The notes beneath the pieces are model-generated. The model was not told the DNA's origin, made no database searches, and worked only from the letters and a program-made list of their open reading frames with translations. Positions 1 to 1,947 of a stretch of 64,000 bases of DNA are shown in pieces. Source of the DNA: Caldisericia bacterium (GTDB taxonomy: Bacteria; Caldisericota; Caldisericia; B22-G15); the NCBI GenBank assembly GCA_030018355.1, contig JASEFN010000004.1, positions 62,001 to 126,000 of the forward strand, in the 5' to 3' direction. Made by a program: the position numbers and the translations under genes. Each line of letters opens with the position of its first letter. The stretch's first letter is position 1.

Positions 1-343
1 CAATAGGATGACCTCCAATGTAAAATGAATTTAACTTTTTCATCTCATCTAAAATAGATCTTTTAGTGCTTCCAGTATCAATAACTATTGAATTTTTATT
101 AAACTTTTCTCTATTATCTTTTATAAAATTTGGTATGTCTTGAACAGGAATCGAAATTAGAATGATATCTTTTTTAAAACCATCATCTAATTCAACTATT
201 TCATCAACTACACCATATTTAATTGCTTTTGTATTAGTCTCTTCATTAATATCAAAACCAAATCTTTTCCACTTTCCGTTAAGTTTTAATCCAATTGAAC
301 CACCAATTAAACCCAAACCTATAATAAAAATGCTATTCAACAT
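1..343 (-). CDS. tyrA: Prephenate dehydrogenase, N-terminal part (runs off window)
   Basis: Oxidative decarboxylation of prephenate (or arogenate) in tyrosine synthesis; cytoplasmic. Only the first ~114 residues are in the window. The reading frame opens with a Rossmann fold, GLGLIGGSIG at residues 8-17, and later has DTGSTK and GGHPI, matching the conserved NAD-binding and substrate-side motifs of TyrA. The ATG at 343 lies inside the last codons of aroF, an 11-base overlap that implies translational coupling. It is the third gene of the aroH-aroF-tyrA operon behind a Tyr-codon leader, which agrees with a tyrosine-directed role. The C-terminal half, and any ACT domain, lies outside the window. 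Confidence 0.88.
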   Translation of the reverse strand, partial: MLNSIFIIGLGLIGGSIGLKLNGKWKRFGFDINEETNTKAIKYGVVDEIVELDDGFKKDIILISIPVQDIPNFIKDNREKFNKNSIVIDTGSTKRSILDEMKKLNSFYIGGHPI

Positions 344-1349
344 ATCTTCCAATTGAATTACTTACAAGTTTACTTTTTTCAACTAATTCTTTAAATTGTT
401 CTGGATATAGAGATTGATAACCATCTGAAAGTGCTTTTTCAGGTTCAATATGTACCTCAACTAAAATTCCATCTGCACCTGCTGCAATTGATGCAAGAGA
501 TACTGGAATTACAAGATTTCTATCACCAGTTGCATGGGATGGATCAACCACAATTGGAAGATGTGTTATTGATTTTAAAACTGGAATTGCAGATATATCA
601 AGTGTATTTCTTGTATAAGTTTCAAATGTTCTTATTCCTCTTTCGCATAAAATTACATTATGATTCCCATTTGAAAGTATATATTCTGCTGCAAGTAGAA
701 ACTCTTCAATTGTTGCAGACATTCCTCTTTTTAAAAGAATTGGCTTATTCAGTTTTCCAACCTCCTCAAGAAGCGAAAAGTTTTGCATATTCCGTGCTCC
801 AATCTGAATTATGTCAACTGTATCATTTAAAAGTTCAATTTGGCTCTCTGACATAACTTCTGTTATAATGGGAAGATTAAAGGTTTCTTTTACCTCTCTT
901 AAATATTTAATCCCTTCTTTTCCTAAGCCTCTAAAACTATATGGAGATGTTCTTGGTTTAAAAACACCCCCTCTTAAAATTTTTGCTCCATAATTTTTGA
1001 CTATTTCAGCAATTTTAAAAACCATTTCTCTTCCTTCAACAGCACATGGACCAGCCATAAAAACAATTCCTTTATCACCAATTTTTACTGAATTAACATT
1101 AATTATTGTATTTTCTTTTTTAAATTCTCTACTTGCAAGCTTAAAAGGTTTTAAAATTCTAATTGCATCTTCAACTTGAGGAAAATTAAGCCAATAGTTT
1201 CTATCTTTTGCTCTTGCATCACCAATTAAACCAATTATAACCTTTTCTTCACCTTTAGAGATATGTGGAATTAATCCAACTTCTTTAATTTTTTCAATTA
1301 GTGCCTCAATTTCTTCATCTTTTACACCCTTCTTTAAAATTAAAATCAT
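333..1349 (-). CDS. aroF: 3-deoxy-7-phosphoheptulonate (DAHP) synthase, class I beta with N-terminal regulatory domain
   Basis: First step of the shikimate pathway: phosphoenolpyruvate plus erythrose 4-phosphate to DAHP. The 338-residue protein has an N-terminal ferredoxin/ACT-like domain (about 1-75), as in the Thermotoga-type feedback-inhibited enzymes, then the TIM-barrel with MAGPCAVE (98-105), KPRTSPYSFRGLG (131-143), the LLKRGM strand near 205-210 and DPSHATGDR (269-277), which carry substrate and metal ligands. The ATG overlaps the aroH stop as ATGA. Erythrose 4-phosphate could come from the transketolase encoded at 37396. The N-terminal domain suggests allosteric feedback by an aromatic amino acid, in addition to the leader-peptide control upstream; that effect is inferred from the family. 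Confidence 0.95.
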   Translation of the reverse strand: MILILKKGVKDEEIEALIEKIKEVGLIPHISKGEEKVIIGLIGDARAKDRNYWLNFPQVEDAIRILKPFKLASREFKKENTIINVNSVKIGDKGIVFMAGPCAVEGREMVFKIAEIVKNYGAKILRGGVFKPRTSPYSFRGLGKEGIKYLREVKETFNLPIITEVMSESQIELLNDTVDIIQIGARNMQNFSLLEEVGKLNKPILLKRGMSATIEEFLLAAEYILSNGNHNVILCERGIRTFETYTRNTLDISAIPVLKSITHLPIVVDPSHATGDRNLVIPVSLASIAAGADGILVEVHIEPEKALSDGYQSLYPEQFKELVEKSKLVSNSIGRYVE

Positions 1350-1705
1350 GTTGCACCTCCAAATAGATCCTCCCTTAAAGATTTTGCTTTTCCAAGATAA
1401 ACTGGAATTAACTTTTTTTCTCCATCAACAAAAATCATCACTCTGATACATTTCTCAAGTGCTCCATCTATTTTTTTATGTTCAAGATCAAGAAATGGTG
1501 TTTCTTTTAAATTAAATTTCTCTCTTACAATTTTAGATGGAAAAATTTTTGTAAGATCATCTGTCATCGTAAAAATGACACCTAAAATCTCCTCTTTTCT
1601 TAAGTTATTAACCTTAATTATCTCTTCAAAAAGATTAATTACTCCATTCTTAATTGAATCTTCACTATTTTCATCCACTGTTATTGCACCTCTTAAAATC
1701 CTCAC
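1346..1705 (-). CDS. aroH: Chorismate mutase, AroH class
   Basis: Converts chorismate to prephenate for Phe/Tyr synthesis. The sequence matches the small AroH-type mutase: RGAITVDENSEDSI at the N-terminus, a central DDLTKIFPSKIVRE, and CIRVMIFV before the C-terminal PVYLGKA segment. The start is set to a GTG at 1705 because it follows an excellent Shine-Dalgarno sequence (AGGAGGTGG on the minus strand, 1709-1717) and makes the protein begin RILRGAITV like other AroH proteins; an upstream ATG at 1735 would lie within the terminator hairpin. About 119 residues, the normal size. It is the first structural gene after the leader peptide and terminator, so its transcription should depend on read-through. 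Confidence 0.92.
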   Translation of the reverse strand: MRILRGAITVDENSEDSIKNGVINLFEEIIKVNNLRKEEILGVIFTMTDDLTKIFPSKIVREKFNLKETPFLDLEHKKIDGALEKCIRVMIFVDGEKKLIPVYLGKAKSLREDLFGGAT

Positions 1706-1717
1706 AAACCACCTCCT

Positions 1718-1746
1718 AAAAATAAAAAAGCCCACTTTCGTGGGCT
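1718..1746 (-). terminator. Intrinsic terminator in the aro leader (attenuator)
   Basis: On the minus strand the RNA forms AGCCCAC-GAAA-GTGGGCT (stem arms 1740-1746 and 1729-1735) followed at once by a U-rich run (1718-1728). It ends only one base before the aroH Shine-Dalgarno site and lies downstream of the Tyr-rich leader peptide, so it is a premature terminator of the aro operon and not the end of another gene. Confidence 0.85.
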
Positions 1747-1794
1747 CTGGTGAAATTCAGAAGAAGGAGAAAACCTTCTCCTGAACTTCACCAG
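1747..1794 (-). promoter_or_regulatory. Long leader hairpin preceding the aro terminator
   Basis: A nearly perfect stem of about 20 base pairs (CTGGTGAA... paired with ...TTCACCAG, loop about TTTT) directly abuts the terminator stem. Its 5' arm contains the Trp and stop codons of the leader peptide, so a ribosome terminating there would melt it, while a ribosome stalled on the Tyr codons would leave it free. The 3' arm ends in CACCAG, whose last two bases can also extend the terminator stem by pairing with its U tract, giving a possible point of competition. The switching mechanism is inference. Confidence 0.7.
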
Positions 1795-1832
1795 TCAATA
1801 TAATAATAGTAATAATATCTAAAATTTCTCAT
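1788..1832 (-). CDS. Tyr-rich leader peptide of the aro operon
   Basis: A 14-codon ORF on the minus strand reads MRNFRYYYYYYIDW then TGA: six Tyr codons in a row, plus one Phe and one Trp, ending within the 5' arm of the leader hairpin. This is the textbook arrangement for ribosome-mediated attenuation of an aromatic amino acid operon (as in trp, phe and his leaders). There is no Shine-Dalgarno site; a TAAAAT box at 1844-1849 lies 11 bases upstream, so translation may be leaderless, like other genes here. The target genes aroH, aroF and tyrA make Tyr precursors, so low charged tRNA-Tyr should favour read-through. Function is inferred from composition and position. Confidence 0.85.
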   Translation of the reverse strand: MRNFRYYYYYYIDW

Positions 1833-1905
1833 AAATTTTAAATATTTTAACTCAACTTATAGAATTCTATTAATTTTTTCTAATTGATATAACCTTTCTT
1901 ACCTC

Positions 1906-1933
1906 TTGACAAAATTTAAAAGTATATTATACT
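1906..1933 (+). promoter_or_regulatory. Sigma-70-type promoter of the winged-helix/ABC operon
   Basis: TTGACA (1906-1911), a 16-base spacer, and TATACT (1928-1933). Predicted transcription start is near 1940, giving a leader of only about ten bases before the ATG at 1951. Confidence 0.85.
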
Positions 1934-1947
1934 TTGTAATACAAAGT
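1931..1947 (+). promoter_or_regulatory. Perfect palindrome overlapping the -10 box: likely autoregulatory operator
   Basis: ACTTTGTA-A-TACAAAGT is an 8+1+8 perfect inverted repeat that covers the end of the -10 box and the predicted start site. It lies just before the gene for a winged-helix regulator, the usual arrangement for autorepression by a dimeric repressor. Confidence 0.75.

Follow-up and report, generated by a model that had tools for sequence, protein, structure and literature searches.

A predicted tyrosine-specific leader-peptide attenuator upstream of a shikimate pathway operon in Caldisericia

The window analyzed here is the whole 64,000-nucleotide stretch of a Caldisericia genome, and it opens on the minus strand with the first genes of an aromatic biosynthesis operon and the leader region that precedes them. 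In order of coordinate, these features are as follows.

1..352, minus: tyrA, prephenate dehydrogenase (start of the gene, which runs beyond the window), assigned from gene order and a profile search
333..1349, minus: aroF, DAHP synthase with a ferredoxin-like domain (PF00793 and PF18152)
1346..1705, minus: aroH, AroH-type chorismate mutase (CM_1), GTG start at 1705 (PF07736, E=2.3e-33)
1712..1717, minus: Shine-Dalgarno sequence of aroH, AGGAGG (A at 1717, then GGAGG), directly after the U tract; read from the sequence
1718..1728, minus: U tract TTTTTATTTTT; read from the sequence
1727..1748, minus: intrinsic terminator T, extent with two further pairs, 7-bp core at 1746-1729; folding and two compensatory changes
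1747..1794, minus: hairpin A, 21 bp, proposed antiterminator; folding and covariation in three genera
1788..1832, minus: leader ORF MRNFRYYYYYYIDW-stop; direct sequence reading, orthologues in L004 and L007, chance tests
1817-1800, minus: six consecutive Tyr codons (codons 6-11, TAT TAT TAC TAT TAT TAT), proposed sensor
1844..1873, minus: candidate promoter TTAATA-18-TAAAAT, a weak consensus match (9/12) whose -10 box ends 11 nt before the leader ATG

The original prediction took aroH-aroF-tyrA as the regulated unit. These three genes do belong to it, but the unit is longer and continues outside the window (L002) through aroA-aroE-aroC-aroKB-aroQ, giving eight genes that are closely spaced in one row. 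The later genes encode EPSP synthase, shikimate dehydrogenase, chorismate synthase, a fused shikimate kinase-dehydroquinate synthase and a type II dehydroquinase.

Direct reading of the sequence bears out the six-Tyr leader ORF that had been proposed on the minus strand ahead of the terminator. From the ATG at 1832 its codons are ATG AGA AAT TTT AGA TAT TAT TAC TAT TAT TAT ATT GAC TGG TGA. The ORF had also been described as running with its last codons into a long hairpin, and both the last sense codon and the TGA (1790-1788) are indeed found within the 5' arm of hairpin A. A run of five Tyr codons, (TAY)5, has an expected count of 0.02 in the window and occurs at a single site, the leader, across the whole 1.4-Mb genome. 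A short ORF with six Tyr in six codons arose in none of 4000 shuffles of the window leader region. The same test gave 1/4000 for the five-Tyr leader of a second genus (L004) and 98/4000 for the three-Tyr leader of a third (L007), where the Tyr signal is modest taken alone. Past the TGA the leader frame stays open (window 1787-1717, minus) until a TAG that immediately precedes the aroH ribosome site, an arrangement that is not conserved in L004.

The promoter of L004, TTGACA-16-TATAAT, matches the consensus at 12/12 positions and lies 10 nt before the leader ATG, and that of L007, TTGACT-16-TATAAT, matches at 11/12 and lies 7 nt before it. No Shine-Dalgarno sequence precedes the leader ATG in any of the three genera. 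Because the -10 boxes lie 7-11 nt before the ATG and a Shine-Dalgarno sequence is lacking, the leader ORF is probably translated from a leaderless or nearly leaderless message. Transcription would start at the leader AUG or a few nucleotides upstream, so that the ribosome would load on an almost leaderless message. On the far side of the promoter, a perfect inverted repeat, ACTTTGT-ATT-ACAAAGT (window 1931-1947), lies just upstream of a divergent gene for a winged-helix regulator (ATG 1951), with genes for a membrane protein and an ABC-2 transporter beyond it; the repeat is likely an autoregulatory operator.

The leader region folds with a predicted energy of -63.8 kcal/mol, compared with a shuffle mean of -32.5 (z = -7.9), and an intrinsic terminator stands between the leader and the first gene. 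The overlap of about two bases reported earlier between the long hairpin and the terminator is correct for A against the extended form of T. In all three genera A and T adjoin at their bases, with 0 nt between them. A comparable flush hairpin was present at 5 of 73 other terminator-like sites, most of them in E. coli, and at the end of the E. coli sRNA RaiZ (L110 position 2019) a predicted hairpin lies 1 nt upstream of the terminator. Since the RaiZ-end site presumably still terminates, flush hairpins do not necessarily prevent termination. Within the inner part of hairpin A, GGAG...CUCC is kept in the window (1781-1765, minus), L004 and L007, with GGAG 0-6 nt past the leader stop.

The DAHP synthase of this operon is found in only 6 of 49 Caldisericia genomes, and three genomes of the window's own genus are without it. 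All six operons (the window genome and five others) have the same gene order as far as their contigs reach. The leader module is present in three of the six: the window genome, G004 (L004), which belongs to another genus of the same family, and G045 (L007, the same as L018), from a genus of another family. The comparison covers three leader sequences from draft genomes. The orthologous peptides are MFVMSYSYYYYLLR in G004 and MDKNIFVYYHYRRGKT in G045. Each leader carries several codons for the product amino acid of the operon (6 Tyr in the window, 5 in L004 and 3 in L007, with the orthologue patterns Y.YYYY and YY.Y). In all three the last Tyr codon is codon 11, hairpin A begins at nt 37-38 (0-based) from the AUG, and the leader stop codon lies inside hairpin A. 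The other three aro operons (L005, L006 and L008) are without the entire module, having neither the Tyr ORF nor the terminator.

Alignment of the three leaders also provided evidence for both helices. All 39 cells of helix A (13 basal pairs in three genera) are paired, with double changes in six columns, and when the L007 substitutions were placed at random all 13 pairs stayed intact in 3.5e-5 of trials. Terminator T is likewise paired in 21/21 cells (seven pairs in three genera), with two double changes. A covariance model searched against 54 genomes of the phylum found only the three leader sites to be significant (E 1e-16 to 1e-20); nine weaker matches were considered as further copies and rejected as ordinary terminators. 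No Tyr leader was found before AroH outside Caldisericota (71 of 80 named-genome loci scanned), no copy of the module was found in viral contigs, and no leader was found among His-codon runs in the class. Together these comparisons favor the attenuation reading of the original prediction, as the relatives keep the Tyr codons, the codon-11 position, the stop within the hairpin, helix A with its compensatory changes, and the terminator. Relatives missing the Tyr codons or the terminator had been named as the observation that would count against it; in L005, L006 and L008 the two are missing together.

A tyrosine leader on a general aromatic unit had initially seemed odd. In profile searches with both controls positive in 14/14 genomes, the chorismate-binding family (TrpE, PabB, MenF) was found in 0/49 Caldisericia genomes, as was PheA-type prephenate dehydratase (0/49); several of these genomes are drafts, and the window genome, which is rated 100% complete, also lacks the MqnA family. 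Without those branches, tyrosine is the sole fate of the chorismate made by the operon, by way of chorismate mutase and TyrA. The class thus apparently makes no aromatic amino acid but tyrosine, and would have a tyrosine-only aromatic pathway that is patchily retained. Because tyrosine is apparently the sole aromatic amino acid product, a Tyr leader over the entire shikimate pathway is the expected feedback logic. The apparent absence of the Trp, PABA and Phe branches accounts for the oddity.

Ribosome positions were modeled on the assumption that the footprint extends 10 nt past the A-site codon. In each of the three genera, a ribosome that has reached the stop codon hides almost the entire 5' arm of A, and one held at codons 6-10 leaves hairpin A free. 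For each ribosome position, transcripts cut before the 3' arm of T were folded to score sequestration of the T 5' arm. With the ribosome at the first Tyr codon, 2.1/9 nt of this arm are sequestered in the window, 3.6/9 in L004 and 0.1/8 in L007. Early-Tyr stalls in the window give 2.0-2.1 of 9, and at the last Tyr codon the values are 0 in the window, 0.01 in L004 and 2.0 in L007. In contrast, E. coli control leaders stalled at their first regulatory codons sequester 9.0/11 (thrL), 5.0/7 (trpL) and 8.4/10 nt (pheL), and fewer than 0.1 at the stop; the truncation method thus recovers these three switches, although not that of hisL. Folds of the three genera contain no 2:3 antiterminator that takes the 5' strand of T in the stalled state, and no 1:2 pause hairpin in which the leader-coding region pairs with the 5' arm of A.

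These results bear out the earlier suspicion that the switch does not use classical 2:3 versus 3:4 pairing. Folding with a ribosome footprint had been suggested as a check, and it gave a divided answer: the stop-state footprint covers the 5' arm of A, but T stays formed throughout. Because static folds keep T in every ribosome state, base pairing does not predict read-through. Broadly defined, the leader would be a ribosome-mediated attenuator, but we would not place it in the classical strand-exchange type, because the strand sequestration that defines that type was looked for and not found.

We consider it likely that the leader acts as a ribosome-mediated transcription attenuator, one that would respond to charged tRNA-Tyr and regulate the eight-gene operon, of which tyrosine is apparently the sole aromatic amino acid product. 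Judged from the sequence, leader and terminator most likely form a switch that would turn the operon on when tyrosine is short. The analysis establishes how the leader is built, that it is conserved and covaries, where the Tyr and stop codons lie, and, by profile search, that the other branches are missing; what the ribosome does and which way the operon responds are inferred. With ample Tyr-tRNA, the ribosome would reach the stop codon within the 5' arm of A. Hairpin A could not form, since the footprint at the stop masks nearly all of that arm, and with A prevented T would halt transcription before aroH. Under a shortage of Tyr-tRNA, it would stall on codons 6-11, upstream of A, which would fold once its 3' arm is transcribed and allow read-through into aroH. 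If starvation is to induce the operon, A must antagonize T, since A is the hairpin that forms in the starved state.

How A would do so is a more tentative matter. One proposal, to which we give somewhat less than even weight, is that A antagonizes T sterically and not by strand capture, as a helix of this length directly adjoining T would occupy the RNA polymerase exit channel. T must close in this channel with its base beside the RNA-DNA hybrid, and there would be no room there for a long flush helix. A and T would then be mutually exclusive on steric grounds, because a flush A would sit in the exit channel where T closes. A little more doubtful still is the full form of this idea, an attenuator with essentially no nucleotides common to antiterminator and terminator, in which a ribosome on Tyr codons gates a flush hairpin that acts by steric exclusion alone.

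Nearest-neighbor folding might instead have missed a classical shared-strand antiterminator, such as a pseudoknot, a long-range pair or a form of A that extends into the terminator. The stalled state of L004 lends this some substance, since there A can be extended by AUUUGU/ACAAAU to take the 3.6 of 9 T 5' arm nucleotides, and A and extended T overlap by 2 nt in the window. We nevertheless regard it as unlikely: such sequestration is not conserved, as is clear from the low values at early Tyr codons (window and L007) and at the last Tyr codon (window and L004), and for thrL, trpL and pheL (not hisL) the truncation method does detect the classical switch. Control might also be translational or mixed, with A opened by the ribosome and its freed, CUCC-containing 3' arm pairing with the aroH ribosome site. 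GGAG/CUCC is conserved in inner A, aroH has GGAGG, and the stop-state fold of the window does pair the CUCC region with the ribosome site. This pairing is absent from the stop-state folds of L004 and L007, any CUCC complements a Shine-Dalgarno site, and T already separates the 3' arm of A from the aroH ribosome site, all of which makes this reading quite improbable.

Slightly more improbable again is that A serves as an RNase III or stability element and T as a constitutive attenuator, the Tyr codons being incidental. The unusual length of the A duplex and the prediction of T in every state would suit this explanation, yet the Tyr run is unique in the genome and is kept in other genera with synonymous and spacing variation while its position relative to A is fixed. 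An AT-rich genome could also place a TAT repeat beside an ordinary terminator by chance, and the run does look like a simple repeat; given the expectation of 0.02 per window, the single genomic site and the covarying orthologues, we assign this a negligible probability. An attenuator responding to charged tRNA-Tyr is the reading we prefer.

The trp, phe and his operons are controlled by ribosome stalling at leader codons for the amino acid. The Caldisericia leader resembles E. coli trpL, pheL, thrL and hisL in its short ORF with codons for the product, in the masking of an alternative hairpin at the stop codon, and in the intrinsic terminator before the first gene. It differs in its Tyr codons, in a long hairpin flush with the terminator, in having neither an antiterminator that takes the 5' strand of T nor a 1:2 pause hairpin, and in an ORF that begins 7-11 nt after the -10 box. 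The RAT hairpins of BglG/LicT antitermination are antiterminators that touch the terminator by only a few nucleotides, much as here; unlike the Caldisericia leader, they are stabilized by a protein and have no leader peptide.

In Corynebacterium glutamicum, the AroR leader with its Phe-Tyr-Phe codons mediates attenuation of aroF, a DAHP synthase gene (PMC11802643, PMC4046766), and is reported to respond to Phe, not Tyr (PMC11802643). Both systems involve leader-peptide attenuation of a DAHP synthase unit, whereas the Caldisericia leader has Tyr sensor codons and its unit is the whole shikimate-Tyr pathway. Mycobacterial leaderless poly-Cys ORFs (Canestrari 2020), as they are presented in a citing paper (PMC13236596), are nearly leaderless, as the Caldisericia leader probably is, and like it have a homopolymeric run of sensor codons. 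That account describes them as translational attenuation, whereas the Caldisericia leader has an intrinsic terminator between leader and gene. A 2005 comparative survey lists attenuators for His, Thr and Phe, and T-boxes for Tyr (PMC1262725). Tyrosine T-boxes also sense tRNA-Tyr charging upstream of Tyr genes (PMC1262725), but the Caldisericia transcript to the terminator is only ~115 nt and sensing would be by translation. A T-box or other known RNA family was rejected here, with no Rfam match at the leader (the window yields only two tRNAs).

We found no tyrosine-specific leader-peptide attenuator described in the open-access literature, where AroR was the only Tyr-codon leader to turn up. 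The predicted tyrosine-specific form of ribosome-mediated attenuation thus appears to be new. It would extend this type of control to Caldisericota, with the logic of a shikimate operon that serves tyrosine only, and it would allow a straightforward test of antitermination by a flush upstream hairpin in the absence of strand exchange.

Additionally, a genome of another phylum (G126:C16; L159 1335-1400) carries, directly upstream of DAHP synthase, the leader ORF MASTERLVRLFNFYFGYYWTW, whose codons include those for Phe, Tyr and Trp. It is accompanied by a terminator and an 11-bp alternative helix (GGUAGAUUGAG/CUCAAUCUACU) that overlaps the upper arm and loop of the terminator. This antiterminator takes 4/12 terminator-arm nucleotides and the loop in every state tried, so L159 is only a loose classical comparator. 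The L159 leader apparently serves attenuation by all three aromatic amino acids.
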